A program made the translations under genes and the position numbers. The notes below the pieces were generated by a model. It did no database searches, was not told the DNA's origin, and saw nothing but the letters and a program-made list of their open reading frames with translations. A stretch of DNA of 64,000 nucleotides from Liolophura sinensis (taxonomy: Eukaryota; Mollusca; Polyplacophora; Chitonida; Chitonidae): NCBI RefSeq assembly GCF_032854445.1, contig NC_088301.1:12396281-12460280 (forward strand). Direction: 5' to 3'. Position 1 is the stretch's first letter. The number at the start of each line of letters is the position of its first letter. Shown here piece by piece: positions 16,969-40,600 of the stretch.

Positions 16969-18937
16969 TTAATTCTGTCCCGTCAGCAAAGCATGGCCTC
17001 AAATGGGTAAGAAAAATTCCCGCCGTTTGCTGCTGGTGTTAAAATTCACACAACAACGACAACACGTAACATCAGGATATCCCGTGTGAGAAATCAAGGA
17101 ATTAAAATATCATACTAAAGGAAGGGTAGTGTTTACTTACAGGCGCAATAAATTTTGGGTCTATGTGAGTATGCATTTCATTAGATTAGGGTAAAAACTG
17201 AAGAGCAGTGGTAAATAGTACTTTGTTGACACCGTTGTGAAATACCCTGATGCAAAAATAACTTACAAACATCATACATCCAAGCAAGCAAACATCATAC
17301 ATCCAAGCAAGCAAACATGGATCACTCAGTCTCACGTAAATGTAAATTGTATATTTTAAACGGTGAAAATTATATGCTAAATATCTGTTTCCCGTTCTTA
17401 TTGTGGGACTGGTGTGCTGTTACACTGATACTTATAGTCCATGCTATTAATATTGATAATAGCGTTGAAATTTAATGCTCTGCCAGGAAATCTGCTGTGA
17501 ACTTCTAATATTTGCTAAGCATGGCAGCTGTCTGCTTGGCTTTATCTTGCGCCGGATTTAGATGTATGGACGACAAATAGCAATGGAGCAGCTGACTTTG
17601 GTGAACCAGCTAATGGTGTGCATACAGTCCTAAATTTTCGCGGCCTCACCTTCACTCCCTAGGAGATTGCCGGCCTCAAAGATCATCGCCCTATGTTAAA
17701 ACTATACCAACATGTAGGGGCAACTGTGTCTCATATCAAAGCAATGACTAGTGACTTTCATATCATTTGGTTCATTTAAAATTTTGCAGAATTGAAATAG
17801 TGACTTTTGACCACACAGGTGGACCAGCTTTTTGACTAGTAGTTCTCATCTCATAATCTGTGTCAGTTAAATGTTGCAGCAGTTGAAGGATTCACACACG
17901 AGAGGCTACATTGTGAAAACTCTCCACAGCCATCATGGCAGATAGGTTTGGTTTTAACATGGGGTGATGATCTTCGAGGCCGGCAATCTCCCACGGAGTG
18001 AAGGTGGGACTGCCGAAATTGTAACGTGCATATTTGTGTTGGCCTGTACTTTCGCAGAAGACACGAGAAGCTTCCGAGGTGCAAGTTGTGCAGAACTCAC
18101 TAGTCCAAGAAAATCAAATAGAACATTGTGTAGCTTTACCCTGTAGTCTTAGCAAAGGTGCTTAATGGCACCTGGAGATACCTTTCACCACTGCTATGGA
18201 GTGCCAGTCTGATATCATGTTCAATCTGATAAGATCTTGCCAAACGTTAGTGGTTTACTCTGGGCATTCTAGTTTCTTCCACCTGTAAAAAGTGATTGCT
18301 GGGATGATATACATGTAAGTGAACAATTCTTCATAAGGCATTGAACACCAAACAAATTCAAGTCTCAGTCTTCAATCAGGTCATTTATATCTACATGTAC
18401 ATTCACCCTTTCCACTACTGACATTGCTATCCGTCAGGTTTAGTCAGGGGCATGTCTCAGTTTGAGATTATTCTAGAAGATATTGGAAAATTGGGAGATC
18501 CTTGGTTTCCTCCTTCCATCCATCTAAAAATGAATGAGTATATTGTTATCACAAACCTCTCAGTTCTCATGTTTTAGCACAGAACATAATGTTTCATTAC
18601 ATAGTTGTATGATGTTTTCATCTTGAATAACAACGAAATAAGTGTAGACTTGTCAGCTAGAGCTTTTAAATCCATTTCCAGACCCACAATACTATTTTCT
18701 TCTTGATACATTGTTGTTGCGTGTTCACTGACATATACTACATGTGCAGAAGTTATGTATTAAACACATTAACCATCGTATAGGTTAAGTCAAATATTCC
18801 TGAGAGAAAAAAAAAAGCAGCAAGAGAATAAATATTGTATGTCTGTTACTGCAATGTGTTTTATGCATTTCAGGTCCAGGTGTGCTGTTAATGGTACATG
18901 TGGCACTTGTGTATGTGGCCATAAGAGTGAGCAAGAC
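16969..18937. other. Divergent intergenic region between DLGAP5 and the kelch gene
   Basis: No coding gene is seen. It should hold the 5' UTR exon(s) and promoter of the kelch gene; the acceptor TTATGCATTTCAG at 18873 suggests a spliced 5' UTR. It includes a 26-bp direct duplication at 17267-17318 and an inverted repeat at 17645-18008. Confidence 0.5.
17645..18008. repeat. Inverted repeat, arms about 58 bp, in the divergent intergenic region
   Basis: 17645-17703 (CTCACCTTCACTCC, GAGATTGCCGGCCTC) is complementary to 17951-18008 with a few mismatches and a spacer of about 250 bp. Confidence 0.78.
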
Positions 18938-19717
18938 ATGGAAGGTTCCACTGATGATAGACAACCTCCTGAAAAAGTCATCCAGGAGTTCTGGCACCAG
19001 CAACATATAGGGGAAGCTCCAGATTTTGTGATTGAGCTGGAAAAGAACAATATTCCTTGTCACAAAAGCATTTTGCGGAAAGCGAGTTCTTATTTCGAAG
19101 CCCTGTTCTCCAGCCAAATGAAGGAATGTGAGAACAATCGAGTAAAGCTGATAGATACTCACGTGCATGATTTTATGTCCTTAATGAAATTTGCATACAC
19201 AGGTCAGTTGGACATTTCTAAAGAAACAGTGTTCTCTGTCACTGCACTGGCAAACATGTATCAGTTCAATTCTGCACTGAAATTTGCACAGAAATTCCTG
19301 GTGTCACAGGTGGCATCAGAAACGTGGCGCGAAATACTGCAGTTCTCAGAATTGCATGACTTGAAGGATGTACACTATGTTGCATTTCGATATGTGCTTT
19401 GGAATTTTTCGAAAGAGGTAAAATCAGAAATTGAAAACTTTCAAGTGCTATCGAAGACTTCACTTGAGAAACTGTTGGGACATCCGCTTTTGAACTGCAC
19501 GTCTGAATCGGAAGTTGTTCAGGTTTTGTCTGCCTGGTGTGATTATGATGAGAAGCGGACCCAGGAGGTTTTCGCTGATGTGTTCTTTTCTACTGTGTAT
19601 TTGAATGAACTCACAGCTGAAGAGCTAGATGCCATTCTGAATTTAAAGTGGGTCCAGAACAACTCAGCAGTCAAGAAATTTGTTGAGGAGACAGCTGTGA
19701 ATGAAATCTCAGCAAAT
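18938..19717 (+). CDS. Kelch-gene exon 1: BTB and BACK domains
   Basis: The ATG at 18938 has G at -3 and G at +4. The upstream in-frame sequence runs back to an acceptor TGCATTTCAG at 18873, so the exon has some 5' UTR or an alternative start. The donor GCAAAT|GTAAGC leaves phase 0. The exon carries the whole BTB-BACK half (260 residues). Confidence 0.88.
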
Positions 19718-22700
19718 GTAAGCGTGATTTTACCATGAACAGATTGTATTCCAATTCAATATTTTGTAAAGTCATGTTGAATCACAATATTATGGTATTT
19801 TATCTGAACATATATGCGTACATGTACATATGTGCAGAAATCAATGTGTTGTGTGAGTGGTTAAGCCAAACATCGCGTCAGCAGGAGACAGGAGTGTGGC
19901 CATACCTTAGATTTTACCATGAGAAGTCGTAAAACTCATTCCCTCCTGTAACAAACCAGTCCTATGGGACAACCCTTTTTTTTTCTTTGATTTATTACAT
20001 CACAATTAAAAGTGATTGGTATAAGGCCATGTATTGTTTTACCTGATCTGTCAATACGAATTCATGTTTTTATGTGTACTGGTATTTTTGATATAGTTTC
20101 GGTGGGACAACATTAAATGTGTAATGGATCACACTCATAAAATGACCAGAATAATAATGTTAACAGAGACACTGTAACCCAGGCAAAGACATTATTAGAT
20201 ACCATAAAAAGTTAGAGGGGCAGAGAGGGTTAGCCTGTTAGCGCGGCGCATTGACCCAGGAGCTTCTCACCAATACGGTTGCTTCCTGACTCCAGTTGTA
20301 CATGGGGGTGGTCTGTCAGCAACCTGCAGATCGTCTCTGCCTGCTTTCCTCCCACCATAATGCTGGCCACAGTTGTTTAAGTGAAATATTCTTGAGTATG
20401 GCATAAAACACCAATTAAATAAATAAGGAAATAAATTAAATACTTAAAAGTTATAAATTCACTTGCAGCTTGTCACTTCAAAGTAGAATAGGTAAACTAA
20501 TTCTGGTTGAAAGTTACAAGTTGAACTTGTAACTTTAAACTAAACATTTCTAATAACAATGAACAATGAGTTGCAGAAAGCAGTATATTTCATTGTGGGA
20601 TGGTTAGTTTGTAGACATAAGTAAACCAATAGATTGTTTGTGATTGTAACCTAAAAATAACATTGCAGAGGTTTTAGATTTGTACTTAGAAACTGAAACT
20701 GAAATATAAGTCTGTACTTCCCACATTTGGGGTACTTCATCAGAAATTGTGGTTTCCCATTTCTGTGCTTCATTTTCCCCCAATCAGTTAATCTCACCAC
20801 CATTTCCATTATATTAGTAAAAAAGTCCACAGCATGGTGTTAAATGACAATCAGATAAATAAATAAATAAATTTATAAATAAAATGTAGGCTTTATCCTT
20901 TGTCTGTTTGCAGGCATCGTCACAGTCCAAACCAGTTTGTAAGAAAACCAGGGCAGGCCCCCTGGTGTTGTTGTGTGTTGGTGGGGACTTGAACCTGGGG
21001 GAGAACAACTGTGCCATCCAAATGTATATACAAGATAGACATGACCAGTGGTGAAGCTACAGAACATGCTGACCTGCACCAGGTTTTCCCAACACAGAGA
21101 ACTAACATGGGTTACAGGGCAGTATGTGTTGGTGAGTTAAGATGTCTATCTGTTTGTATGTATGCTTTGGGTTTTTTCACACCGTACTTAACAATTTTTC
21201 AGTCATATGCCGCCAAAGTGCTGCTGCCTCTGAAGTATCATGCCAAAGAAACGAGACAGGAGTCACATTATACTGATACCCCACCCAGTTTTATTGTACA
21301 CGAGGCAACCAGTCATGTTTCCTGGCTCCAAACTCTTGTGCTGATGCGCGAGCTATACTCTAACCATTAGGCCATAAAATTGGAAGTATATGTCACTGAA
21401 TTATAATGAAAAAGCAACATATGGGTGGATATTTGATAAATGGGCGTTTATTGACAGTCCTGATCTTTGGGACTTGCTTCATATAAGTAGGTTGTTTTGA
21501 AATATTCAATATTATCGCCAGTGCATTGTAGAGAAGTGTTGTTGAGCATTGTGCTACACCCCAATCACAGAAAAAAATCATTACATGTACGTTTGTTGCA
21601 CTTCTGAAGTGAGACCATGGGGCTTAAACGACTGCCTCTTGCTTGTGTTTGTGCAGACACTGACCTTTATGTGATAGGAGGGGAGACTGTGTTAGGGAGG
21701 AACACCTGGCAGACAGACATCTGGAAGTATTCCAGCTTCTCTAGCACCTGGTCGTTAGCCACCCAGCTCCAACAGCCTCGGCGTCACCATGGTATCTGTA
21801 CACTGGGCGGAGAAATCTACCTGATAGGTGGGATAGGTCGCTTCAGACAGGTGTTAAACAGCGTGGAGAAGTATAATCCTCAAACAGGTATGGTGAGAGA
21901 CTTGGGTTCAACACCAAGTCATGTCATAGAAAAATCATCAAACAGATACGTATTTATGATAGGGAGGTGTTGGTTGTACTGAACTCCATCCCGGATTGAA
22001 ATATTTATGTCCTTGATTGGTGTCTTCTGTCGTACTGAGGAATATTTCACTTACATAAAACGACATCCAGCATTATGGTGGGAGGGAACCAGACAAAGGC
22101 CCGGGGAAACCCACAACCATGCGCAGGTTGCTGACAGAACTTCCCACATGGAACCAGGAGGTAGTTTGAATGAGCTGACTTGAACCTATTTGAAATAAGG
22201 TTATGGTCATGCATATAATATTTCTAGTTTCCATAGTAACATTATAAAACTGGTACCCGAGACATCTTCTCTAATTTAGAATAAAGCCGTTCAGATAAAG
22301 TTGTGACCTCACTCTGGCAGCTCAGTTATATCCTGGTGAGAATTGTTATATATGAGACTAAGGTATACATGTTACTCTGGCCTGTAATTACAAGCCATTC
22401 CTGCAGAAATTTTCACAACAAACATACCGTTGCTGCAAGATTTACAATCCCATCTTCAGAGTATTCTTAGAATTGCAACTGGGACAGAATTGAAAATTTT
22501 GTGACTGAAGGAAAGTGTATTGGTATGTAATTTTTTAGAAGTACTGTAATTTACCTAAATTTTAAAATTTTTCAAGTAACACTTTTTTGATTCTGACTTA
22601 TTTGACACACATTCCACATAAGAGTTTTTTTTTTTGTGAGAAGTTTTATTAATTCTGATGAAAAACTTAAGTGTTGGCATTAAAAGTATCATTTTAGGGC

Positions 22701-24269
22701 CTTTATTTGCTATGGAAGTATAGTTTTACATACATGTACAGTAGTTGTAAAATGGCAGCACCCAAGGGCATGTTACTAGTACAGATGCTGATGGTAAATC
22801 TGCCCAACATTGTACTCTGCTTTGATAATATTCTCTTGCCATTAGAAGCATTTCCAACATGCAAACATGTACAGTGTATTTTAATACCCTGAGTCTCTCA
22901 TATATTTAATTAGCTAACATGACAAACTGAAAATCCAGGTTTAAACTAGCATTACTGGATTGGCACGTAGAGCTAAGTGGAAACAGTTTCACATTGTAGT
23001 TGCAAACAGTCATGAAAGCTGTCTAAGATTCATCACATGCTGTGTGTGTCAATGTCTTACGTTTATAACAGGTTGAATAGTCAAGTATTTAAGGTTATTG
23101 TGTGTGCATGACTTACTGGATATTGCTAGTGCTCAATAAGTACTAATTAGCCTGGATGGCATGAATTCATGCCTTAGAATTCATGCCTTAGAATTCATTA
23201 ATTTATATGATTGGTGTTTTAAATCATTAACTTTCAGATGAATGTTCATTGTGCCTTTCACATGAATGCTCATCGACTTTCAGATTAATGTCCATTGTTT
23301 CTCTCAGTTGAATATTCATTGTAATTTCAGATTAATGTTCTTTATGCCTTTCAGATGAAATGTTCATCGACTTTTAGATTAATGTCCATTGAGCATTTCA
23401 AATGAATATTTGTTGTGCTTTCAGATGAATGTTTATTGTACTTTCAGATGAATGTTCATTGTACTTTCAGATTAATGTTCATTGTGCCTTTCAGATGAAC
23501 ATTCATGGTGTCTTTCACATGAATGTTCATTGTACTTTCAGATTAATGTTCACTGTGCATTTCAAGTGAATCTTTATTGTGCTTTCAGATGAATGTTTAT
23601 CATACTTTCGGATGTATGTTCATTGTACTTTCAGATTAATGTTCATTGTGCCTTTCATCAGATGAACATTCATGGTGTCTTTCACATGAATGTTCATTGT
23701 ACTTTCAGATGAATGTTCAATGTACTTTTGATTAATGTTCATTATACTTTCAGATTAATGTCCATTGTGCCTTTCAGATGAATGTTCATTGTGCATGTAC
23801 TTTCAGATGAATGGAATTCCCTTTCACCTCTACTTAAGCCAGAGTTCTGGCTGCTGTGACAGTGTGTCAAGGTGATCTGTATGTCATAAAAAACAGTCTG
23901 CAAAAATACAGCCCTTTCAGGGACCAATGGACACTGGTGACAGTTGACCTTCCGTTTAACCTTGGTTATCACAGTGCTGTATCCCTCGGGAGTACAGTCT
24001 TCATGAAATGTCAGTATGATGGACGTCTGGTGAGACTGGAGACAGACAGCAGCCCATTGTCAGCTGAAACAGTGGCAGAGTTTTTGGGGACACCAAATGG
24101 ACAGCTGGTTCTACACAGAGGAAGGCTTTATTGTGTGGGAGGTACAGACTGTACAACATTCCAGTACTATGACGTGAAAAAACAAAAAATAGAGACAGTA
24201 GGAAAACTGAATTTGCCTCTTTGCGGATTTAGTACTGTACTTCAGCCATTCTATCCATTTCCATTATGA
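18938..24269 (+). CDS. BTB-BACK-kelch protein gene (KLHL/KBTBD type), three coding exons
   Basis: Coding exons are 18938-19717, 21614-21887 and 23845-24269, about 492 residues. Residues 16-124 form a BTB domain (DFVIELEKNNIPCHKSILRK, SYFEALFSSQMKE, MKFAYTG) and 129-240 a BACK domain. Kelch blades follow with LYVIGG, IYLIGG, LYVIKN and LYCVGG. Family knowledge: such proteins bind CUL3 through BTB-BACK and present substrates through the kelch propeller for ubiquitination. The exact KLHL/KBTBD member cannot be named. The third exon is odd: the acceptor that best restores the kelch repeat (23807) leads to a frameshift near 23842, while an acceptor at 23844 keeps the frame but drops 12 residues. 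The gene may be functional, a recent pseudogene, or affected by a one-base assembly error. Confidence 0.82.
20217..20430 (+). repeat. tRNA-derived SINE family A
   Basis: It contains gttagcgcggcgcattgacc, tgtcagcaacctgcagat, cctcccaccataatgctggc and ttcttgagtatggcataaaa, then AAATA repeats. Confidence 0.85.
21155..21378 (-). repeat. SINE family B copy
   Basis: It starts with the reversed tail ccgtacttaacaatttttca and contains gccgccaaagtgctgctgcc. It ends with a tRNA-head remnant tatactctaaccattaggcc. Confidence 0.72.
21614..21887 (+). CDS. Kelch-gene exon 2: first kelch repeats
   Basis: LYVIGG, DIWKYSSFSSTWS, RRHHGICTLGGEIYLIGG and VEKYNPQT show nearly two kelch repeats. The donor CAAACAG|GTATGG leaves phase 1. 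The acceptor is placed at GAAGTGAG|ACC because it is the one that keeps phase 0; it is a weak site, so the start could be a few bases off. Confidence 0.78.
22012..22190 (-). repeat. SINE family A, diverged
   Basis: It contains gattggtgtcttctgtcgta, ccagcattatggtgggagg and gcccggggaaacccacaacc. It is in kelch-gene intron 2. Confidence 0.75.
23231..23806 (+). repeat. 23-bp minisatellite of splice-acceptor-like units ending at the kelch exon 3 acceptor
   Basis: There are about 24 units of ctttcagatgaatgttcattgta and variants. Seventeen units keep a pyrimidine-AG. The unit start, CTTTCAG|ATGAATG, is the same sequence as the acceptor and first bases of exon 3 (23801-23813). A three-unit block is itself duplicated (about 23455-23540 and 23625-23710). 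Confidence 0.92.
23845..24269 (+). CDS. Kelch-gene exon 3: remaining kelch repeats and stop
   Basis: In frame from TTCTGG (completing Val with the G of exon 2): LAAVTVCQGDLYVI, QKYSPFRDQWTLV, GYHSAVSLGSTVFM, GRLYCVGGTDC, stop at 24267-24269. Just upstream, 23807-23841 encodes Glu-Trp-Asn-Ser-Leu-Ser-Pro-Leu-Leu-Lys-Pro in a frame matching exon 2, exactly the segment missing from the repeat, but it is out of frame with the rest by one base. Confidence 0.75.
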
Positions 24270-37655: not shown

Positions 37656-40600
37656 GTAAACAATGTTGTGGTTACGTTATAGCCTATATGGCCCAGATTA
37701 TCAGTGCGCCAGTTTTCGAGGAAGTAAGGCCGGTACCGTACTAATTTTGTGATGGATATTTTTGAGTTTGACTTTGAGAAAGAGCACTACATGGAATCAT
37801 ATCAGCTAAAACCAAGTGTAGTCCTGTGCTGTATTTTCCCCAATGTTCACATAAATCATGTGTTCACAGTTGAACGCAGTAAACAACTCTGTGAAGGTAC
37901 ATGTAGCTCCACGAGTAAAGCAGACACCTGATTTGTCAATGTACTTACTATTATATCAACGTACCGAGCAGATCAGCTCCACCCACTCCTCAGATGAAAC
38001 GGTGTTGGAAGTAGAAAAACTTGCTTTCTGACAGAAAGTTGCGGCATTGCATTGTAACAAGCACTGAACTGGTATATTTGTATGTCAACGTCCGGATCAA
38101 GTCTGTCTGAGCGTTTCTGCGTTTTTGTTTGTATGTTCTGGTCAATATGTACAGTAAATCCATGTGTTTTCACTGCCAGGTGTTCACCTAGGGGGAATGC
38201 CTTGTTTTTGTTCGACATAATCGCACAATCTCCTGTATTGTCACGTGACATAATCTCAGTTTATCCCTATGCAGCGGAAGCCTAATTTTGCTTGCAATAC
38301 TCACCCAGGGAAGAAGATGTCCGCATATGATAGAGGTTGTAAAGTTGTACTGCTGACACTTCTAACCGAGTCACTTCTAACCGAGTCACTTCATCTGGTA
38401 TCAACATGTTATCATGTTCGCGATGCTCTTCAAAGCTGTTATCCACAAAATCTTTCCCACTTGAGAGTGTATTTACAGTCTGTGTTGTGTTATCTGAATA
38501 TGTATGAGTCACCTACTCAGACTAACAGGTTGATGACGTATCTCACCGCCATCCCCAAATCAAACCGCGAGAACGAGCTACCTAGTCCCATCTGATTTCT
38601 GCCAGGTTTGAGTGTGGCTCTGCACTGCTTGGTGTGTTATAGTACATCATCAGATCAGTTAAGCCACATGTGCAGCTATAATCCAGATAGTTCAAGATGG
38701 CTGTTTGGTTTGGAGAAATTTAGTTCGATCAAGCATAGCACCATGCCAAATTCTGAATGCCCTCCAATTAAAACGCTGATGCAGTGGCAGTGTGTCACAG
38801 AGCTTGTGGCAAAAATTGTGCATTAAACATGGTTTAGCGACCTTAAGTTTGTAGTCACACATGTTCCTTACCTTTTGGTCTGTCGATTTATTGCATGTAC
38901 AACATCCAAGGCCGTGTCAGGCCAGGATTCCGTGGAAGTGCGCAAAAGACCTGCTCTACTGTTTTTAACTGAGGTGAGCTCTGATGTTGGTTTGGGGCCA
39001 ACTTTGGCTGAACAGATTTTGTCAAACCTAACGTCAGAGCAATTTCGGGCTATAATTCAGACCACACCGGCATACTTGTAGTATGGAGTAATAGTCTGAT
39101 TTTCTGACCAGATCTTAGAGCAAATTAGCCCTGAATCACTAATGCTGGCTTTGTCATGGCTTGCTCACATCACAGACCCTTGTCTCGTTTCAACAGGCCC
39201 AGTCATTCTGCTAAATATACGTACAGTATATGTAAAGAAGGACAAGATCAGAAACAAAGTTCAACTGATTTTAGAAATAAAACATTTCTCCTTAGTTTTA
39301 CCCACATGTCTACTTCGTGTTGTACTGTGAGTTGTACACCCCAGTATTATCCACAGTGTGAACAATCTTTCAGAACATCAGCATATACATGTAGATTAGT
39401 GATTTATCAGGACACAGCACCATTATCTTGTCTAATATATCCCATTATGTAACATGATATTATGGGATACAGTAGAGAGAAAAGAATCGTGCTGTGTCGA
39501 GATTGATCACTGATCTACATGCTGATGGTTTCCTCCTGGCTTAGCTCAGTTCCTGGTAGTTTTCTCCTGACTTAGCTCAGGTCCAAGTGGTTTCCTCCTG
39601 GTTCAGCTTAGTTCCTGGTAGTTTTCTCCTGACTTAGCTCAGATCCATGTGGTTTCCTCATGGTTCAGCTCAGTTTCTGGTGTTTCCTCCTGACTTAGCT
39701 CAGATCCACATGGTTTCCTCCTGGTTCAGATCAGTTCCTAGTGATTTTCTCCTGTCTCACCTCAGTTATTGGTAGTTTCCTCCTGGTTTAGCTTAGTTCC
39801 CAGTGGTTTCCTCCTGCTTTAGCTCTGTTTCGATAGATTTCCTCTTGGCTTTGCTCAGCTCGTTCCACCCTTTAGCCTACAGCTGGGATACATGTATAAG
39901 TGACAAACAACTAACACATGTATGTTTACAATGTTATGTTTCTTTGGCACAGTGATGGTAGCTACGCAGGAAGAGCTTGAGGCAGCTAGTGTGCCTCTGG
40001 AGAGAAGGGACTACTGCGCTCACCACTATCTGGAGTTCATGAGGTGTCGTCAAAAGAAGTTCCCCTGGATAGCTGGATGCAAACATGAACAGCATGACTA
40101 TGATAACTGCCAATACAATGAGTAAGTCATTTCAGTGTCTTCACTGTTCCATAGTATCTTTCTTTATCCTTTTTTTTTTCCAGTGTTGTGTTAATAATAT
40201 ATTTATTTGGTTGGCGTTTTGGCCGTGGTCAAAAATATCTTAAATATACGAACATAGCCTGCATTGTGGATTTTCTAGCGTGTTACCGGAGAAGAAGCCA
40301 GCTTGAGCTGGGCTTGAACTCACAGCCACCACATTGGTGGGAGACTCGCACTAACTTGCTAACCACTTATTCACAGAGGCTGACAAGGTTTCCTCTTCAA
40401 TAAGTTAAACATGCAGCTATTTGCTAACTTCATTTGTGTAACGCCAGTTTCACTGTCTTTTGTTGAGGGGTTGATGACTCCAAACAAGGTTGTCTCTCCA
40501 TCATATCACACTTACATGTTGTTTTCTAGATGGCCAGACTGTTTTATCTACATACCCAATAGATGCGACAGATTTACATATATATATTTTTTTCATTGAT

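Follow-up and report, generated by a model that had tools for sequence, protein, structure and literature searches.

Tandem repeats that run across intron/exon boundaries are described from amphioxus under the name of 'mirages', in two reports (PMC3087553, PMC3902484) that cover the genes for Adh3, the globins BflGb6 and BflGb9 and troponin C, together with an imperfect example in PGBD5. Both cite an earlier, original report on amphioxus Adh; the mirage unit of Adh3 is given as 10-72 bp, and the length instability of mirages and their splicing were both studied (PMC3087553, PMC3902484). Elsewhere, internal tandem repeats at exon-intron boundaries are described for human genes in segmental duplications (PMC2812944), and intron gain through tandem duplication is described for potato (PMC4974935). 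In both of these systems, as at the locus considered here, tandem duplication at splice sites alters gene structure, but new introns were reported there, whereas in the array of this study we saw no new intron, just copies of an existing acceptor. A further relative, in the human interferon-induced gene 6-16 (IFI6), is a minisatellite that contains several splice donors; it too presents splice-site copies at an exon boundary, but these are donors where ours are acceptors.

Here, we describe an array of 3' splice-site modules in a kelch gene of the chiton Liolophura sinensis. Like an amphioxus mirage, it has a unit that spans the boundary, it adjoins an authentic boundary, and many of its units retain an AG (in amphioxus, AG or GT). 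Unlike those mirages, it has a mollusc as its host, it comprises 25 modules with just 7 exonic nucleotides each, and its host exon has a broken reading frame. With a repeat in the minisatellite range, a boundary-spanning unit, an authentic boundary and splice signals in many units, the array would be classed as a mirage on its sequence. The kind is already known from amphioxus; what is new is its occurrence in a mollusc and the further cases in the same genome. Among the matches listed in our literature search, which covered mainly openly accessible papers, none reported a mirage outside cephalochordates, the closest case being the human repeats at exon-intron boundaries (PMC2812944).

Structure of the array

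All positions without a contig name refer to the window, i.e. the whole stretch of 64,000 nucleotides that was analysed; the features are collected in Table 1. Tandem Repeats Finder (TRF) returned a period of 23 with 24.3 copies and 71% matches over 23224-23791, and added rows of period 47 and period 164 over the same array that point to duplication of blocks. A sequence-only reading had described about 24 tandem 23-bp units resembling the acceptor and first bases of kelch exon 3, 17 of them with a pyrimidine-AG. Both counts were recovered: there are 24 units and a terminal one, and a pyrimidine-AG closes the intronic part in 17 of the 24, or in 18 of 25 modules once the terminal acceptor is included. 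The resemblance also held, the terminal CTTTCAG/ATGAATG being identical to the unit consensus at 14 of 14 positions (the slash marks the intron/exon boundary).

When the array was cut between ATGAATG and TTCATT, the modules took the form TTCATTGTRC(C)TTTCAG/ATGAATG, so that a unit has about 16 intronic and 7 exonic nucleotides and spans the boundary. The start of the array could be extended from 23231 to 23224 via a partial unit, TCATTAACTTTCAG, and its end to 23813, which is 7 nt into the exon. Pairwise identity between modules has a mean of 0.77 and a minimum of 0.44. We scored the unit against 3166 60-bp tiles from the rest of the window; its best match, with a score of 26 (next, 21), was the tile that holds the terminal acceptor. 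The authentic boundary adjoins the array, the terminal unit being, by homology, the acceptor at 23800-23806.

Table 1. Features of the kelch locus and of comparable arrays in the genome. The slash marks the splice site.
Feature	Position	Strand	Remarks
BTB-BACK exon	18773-19717	+	Same gene as the array; frame open to the proposed donor
Probable kelch exon	20914-21131	+	Follows the BTB-BACK exon and precedes exon 2; second half alone joins exon 2 in frame
Kelch exon 2	21657-21887	+	
Array-bearing intron	21888-23806	+	From exon 2 donor CAG/GTATGG to exon 3; phase 1; 1919 nt, ~30% array
Whole array	23224-23813	+	25 tandem 3' splice-site modules of type TTCATTGTRCTTTCAG/ATGAATG, 21-29 bp each
Units in the register of the sequence-only reading	23231-23799	+	24 units; pyrimidine-AG in 17/24
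Terminal module	23785-23813	+	29 bp; acceptor of the kelch exon and the exon's first 7 nt
Kelch exon 3	23807-24269	+	First codons (one base from exon 2) D-E-W-N-S-L-S-P-L-L-K; frame shifts near 23838
Alternative AAG acceptor	23838 (last base)	+	ttccctttcacctctacttaag/CC; exon from 23839
Array L024	G000:C1:1387583-1388514	minus	32 bp, 9 copies; ends at V-ATPase subunit a exon (Pfam E 1.9e-20)
Array L028	G000:C1:2136264-2137151		41 bp; ends at Raptor exon (PDB search E 0.0015)
Array L021	contig C1		Reaches ethanolamine-phosphate phospho-lyase exon (PDB search E 5.8e-13)
Array L035	contig C1		Reaches sodium/solute symporter exon, weaker (E 0.0097)
Array L070	G000:C1:2772735-2773424		42 bp; starts at the donor of a DUF4457 exon (Pfam E 1.8e-15)

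The host gene and the start of exon 3

Exons were found by homology because codon usage proved too weak a guide: kelch exon 3 scored 10.0, against a 90th percentile of 11.3 for the tiles of the window. Kelch exons flank the phase-1 intron in which the array sits, and we saw no sign of a new exon in the array. In the exon at 20914-21131, Pfam gave no kelch match for the first half, and on our reading this exon may hold a second frame break, besides the one considered below.

The context of the exon 3 acceptor is CTTTCAG/ATGAATGG. Joining 21887 to 23807 gives the junction codon GAT and the protein YNPQT-D-E-W-N-S-L-S-P-L-L-K. Exon 2 alone had a Kelch_1 score of 59.0 bits, which rose to 73.5 bits with the addition of DEWNSLSPLLK; reading through from exon 2 into the intron gave 58.1 bits, and a join at 23839 gave 62.6 bits, a score summed over a longer protein. 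When the W was masked, the score was 62.5; when D-E-W was masked, 59.1; and when D-E-W was left and the rest masked, 67.5. The best PDB matches were designed consensus kelch proteins, the first of which (7ong) reads YDPERNEW at the place of the junction, and the second and third (7pvp and 8pjr) YDPETDEW. This homology supports an exon start at 23807, the D-E-W codons of which would be those of the kelch consensus, and the ATGAATG common to units and exon would most simply be exon sequence in origin.

The frame downstream of the array

The frame of DEWNSLSPLLK differs from that of the remainder of exon 3 (RVLAAVTVCQGDLYVI...), with the switch near 23838, some 32 nt past the array. Translated from the exon 2 donor as assembled, the terminal array acceptor reaches a stop after 17 codons. 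The claim that the array ends at a real exon was therefore upheld by homology, with a correction as to the frame. Each of the 20 AGs listed for the array stretch (with first exon bases from 23238 to 23807, and two AGs outside the unit register) leads to a stop within 40 codons; in the assembled sequence, an open kelch frame follows from none of the array acceptors, not even the terminal one. Over 23201-23860, the C-terminal frame stays open from the exon 2 donor at two sites only, an AAG (exon from 23839, 143 codons) and a GAG (exon from 23845, 141 codons).

Three readings of the break remain: a decaying gene or allele, an assembly error, or splicing relocated to the AAG at 23838. The assembly was published as that of Liolophura japonica (609.5 Mb in 632 scaffolds), with a stated HiFi coverage of 14X (PMC11068029); the species of that paper has since been renamed L. 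sinensis (PMC12441733).

The third reading is also an alternative for the array itself. If the AAG were the acceptor now used, the array would merely lie upstream of it and the protein would lack about 11 residues of a kelch blade. The open frame of 143 codons and the long pyrimidine-rich stretch before this AAG are both consistent with such use, but splicing there would cut out the W-containing part of the blade, which is encoded at the right spacing in the DNA that would be skipped, and we regard it as unlikely. A move to the AAG would nevertheless be compatible with an origin of the array by duplication of the boundary, as a later shift.

Comparable arrays elsewhere in the genome

Three copies of TTTCAG at short spacing gave 5817 matches in the genome and the reversed pattern 3200, an excess that is due in part to the commoner hexamer (73 TTTCAG in the window, 58 for the reverse). 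Among the matches listed (the first 100 of the 5817), there were 19 arrays, on contig C1 at 0.46-3.7 Mb, and all 19 were examined; two of them, L029 and L030, are one family. The 3' flank was assessable in 17, the remaining two (L034 and L037) reaching or nearly reaching the end of their stretch. Ten of the 15 open frames in this set were submitted to Pfam, with one real hit, and the PDB search was run with four peptides chosen by hand. By these means, homology identified an exon at the end of 4 of the 17 assessable arrays: L024, L021, L028 and L035, the last two more weakly.

The arrays differ in how far their units repeat the exon. At the V-ATPase locus (L024), the first 17 nt of the exon recur in six units with 70-100% agreement per position, a result equalled in 0 of 2000 shuffles. 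At the Raptor locus (L028), 11 of the first 12 exon nucleotides are matched in all five units (p 0.0005). The same test gave p 0.001 for the kelch array and p 0.004 for L026, also on contig C1, where a matching unit adjoins an open frame; that frame had no database support. The likeness of unit to exon start was not significant in L021 (p 0.32) or L035 (p 0.12), so an array can meet an acceptor and yet carry no clear copy of the exon.

On the donor side, 15 of the 17 GTAAGT clusters among the matches listed were examined, at least three of which overran the upstream edge. One array (L070) repeats the final 20 nt of a DUF4457 exon together with the GTAAGT that follows, and 17-20 of the 20 exon positions are kept in four units. 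Four more of the nine open frames in this set were run through Pfam, where one sub-cut-off match, to Tat (E 0.0058), was taken for chance. For TTGCAG, the first 20 of 31 listed clusters were examined and 5 of 19 open frames submitted to Pfam, with one sub-cut-off match (DUF4637, E 0.0098, array L086); another array on contig C1, L080, ends at a long open frame for which homology support was not found. Arrays of GACTTT gave no Pfam hits (9 of 21 open frames, from 17 of 20 listed clusters, and none through the PDB search), but they are an unfair control because they were searched less than the TTTCAG set (9/21 against 10/15 open frames in Pfam, and the PDB search for TTTCAG only).

The chance of so many arrays at acceptors depends on the null. 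Were array ends placed by coincidence within 3-10 nt of an acceptor, P for at least 4 of 19 would be about 1e-8 to 4e-6, according to the assumed introns per gene, but this null is unfair because TTTCAG itself marks acceptors. For arrays born anywhere with a TTTCAG-bearing unit, 0.5-2.3 of the 19 are expected at real acceptors and P for at least four is 0.001-0.19, ranges set by the assumed introns per gene and the assumed share of acceptors with the hexamer. Under the same reckoning, the TTGCAG and GTAAGT sets showed no excess. Boundary arrays thus exist, and no mechanism that seeks out boundaries has to be invoked for them; a bias of array birth towards boundaries was considered and, with P of 0.001-0.19, is not demonstrated. 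By rough extrapolation from a sample at one end of one contig (C1), 19 arrays per 100 listed rows would scale to a genome total of about 1100 TTTCAG arrays, some 260 of which would end at exons at the observed rate of 4 in 17.

Acceptor or array first

The direction of change was argued from codons, within this one genome. Because the exonic part of the unit encodes D-E-W, the simpler direction is from acceptor to array. Exon bases of conserved proteins also recur in the units of three further arrays, which speaks for the same direction. Set against a duplicated boundary are the short length in common between array and exon, just 7 exon nt, the closed frame behind every array acceptor in the assembled sequence, the arrays L021 and L035, and a partly matching minisatellite on contig C6 (below), though the unit of the latter is different.

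A 22-base unit consensus had 13 matches in the genome at up to two mismatches, all 13 of them inside the array; at three mismatches, 15 matches lay outside the array, and the reversed pattern had a total of 12. The unit is thus local to the array, and a dispersed repeat family as its source is unsupported since the matches with up to two mismatches are confined to the array. One match on contig C6 (69-71% identity to part of the array, E 2.1e-6) turned out to be a separate minisatellite with the unit TTCCATGGTAATGTTCACTGTGGT. A search of the genome with the protein of exon 3 found its own locus only (two candidates scored), and one with exon 2 found two other matches, at 30 and 36% identity.

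The opposite order, in which an intronic minisatellite expanded until it met the exon and supplied, from among its AGs, a new acceptor in place of the old one, would gain from the abundance in the genome of tandem patterns containing TTTCAG, from the frequency of the single hexamer in the window, and from L021 and L035, where arrays touch an acceptor yet have little in common with the exon. It sits poorly with a kelch unit that holds the bases coding for D-E-W, in phase with exon 2 and matching the kelch consensus, and with the V-ATPase and Raptor loci, where the exon bases found in the units are those of conserved proteins; we consider it improbable. Growth of the array from duplication of the acceptor, as proposed in the sequence-only reading, is accordingly the direction that we favour, given the place of ATGAATG within the D-E-W codons and the parallel arrays, although it is not proved.

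Other repeats in the window and the mitochondrial contigs

Immediately upstream of the array, at 23208-23221, lies TGATTGGTGTTTTA, which occurs at 18 places in the window (itself included) at up to two mismatches and which we take to resemble the head of a dispersed SINE-like repeat. About 25 bp ahead of the array, at 23163-23198, there are 2.6 copies of a 14-bp tandem repeat, GAATTCATGCCTTA. Four other arrays of the window, at 1581, 17266, 39522 and 43784, were rejected as mirages, since no flank within 300 bp ranked high among the tiles of the window (at best 38, 27, 572 and 351, respectively). The third of these (39522-39858) is a 31-bp minisatellite some 95 bp upstream of an exon, presumably of NDUFB7 from its appearance, and its unit does not match the acceptor of that exon.

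One strand of the mitochondrial contig carries COX3-ND3-ND2-COX1-COX2 and the opposite strand ND5-ND4-ND4L-CYTB-ND6-ND1 (COX1 by Pfam, the rest by eye), which we take to be the ancestral mollusc order. Contig G000:C99 has seven copies of COX1 about 15.5 kb apart on one strand, i.e. tandem mitochondrial copies, perhaps a product of the assembly.

Discussion

The array is probably a mirage minisatellite that arose from duplicated intron/exon boundary DNA and grew into the intron, with its units as by-products. The process would have started with a tandem duplication of DNA spanning the boundary, about 16 nt from the end of the intron, acceptor included, plus 7 nt of the exon. Growth into the intron may then have proceeded through slippage or unequal exchange, of single units and of multi-unit blocks. 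Since coding sequence is constrained, purifying selection would have halted the expansion 7 nt inside the exon, which is where the array stops. The acceptor-like units would be by-products, mostly neutral for splicing, and a neutral origin, with the array born across the boundary and held in check by the exon, suffices.

Most modules also carry YTNAY, a branch-point-like motif. Its adenine lies 10-13 nt from the intronic end in 17 of 25 modules, at 7 nt in the first and at 16 nt in one, and is absent in five; nowhere is the distance greater than in the terminal module, where 18 nt separate the adenine from the final base of the intron. Since AGs less than 12-15 nt from a branch point can be bypassed (PMC1431707), the terminal AG may be the best placed of the array AGs.

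That the ladder of AGs, putative decoys on the sequence-only reading, is instead a splicing device, in which AGs and pyrimidine tracts compete so as to divert splicing to non-productive transcripts or to titrate splicing factors, seems to us very improbable: the frequency of pyrimidine-AGs, the early stop that follows each of the 20 AGs and an RNA folding somewhat stronger than that of shuffled sequences (z -2.58; equalled by 1 shuffle in 100) would suit it, but symmetry within the unit can account for the folding, 20 of 25 modules retain the G of the AG while many other columns are kept equally well, so that the array gives no sign of selection for AGs, and amphioxus mirages are reported without disturbance of regular splicing (PMC3087553, PMC3902484).

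Returning to the mirage, a broader picture can be offered tentatively, as something we lean slightly against: boundary-spanning minisatellites could be a common class in chiton genes, with hundreds of acceptor and donor loci; mirages could be a product of any minisatellite-rich genome; and the kelch acceptor could be leaving its array behind, with a slide from 23806 to the AAG that ends at 23838.

Splice sites are usually taken as single, fixed points. If a genome can bear tandem acceptor copies by the dozen next to the true one, also in its V-ATPase and Raptor genes, they put the spliceosome's choice of the right AG to the test and would provide a concrete route to intron sliding and intron gain. 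Their occurrence in a mollusc makes these ideas testable over well-assembled chiton genomes.
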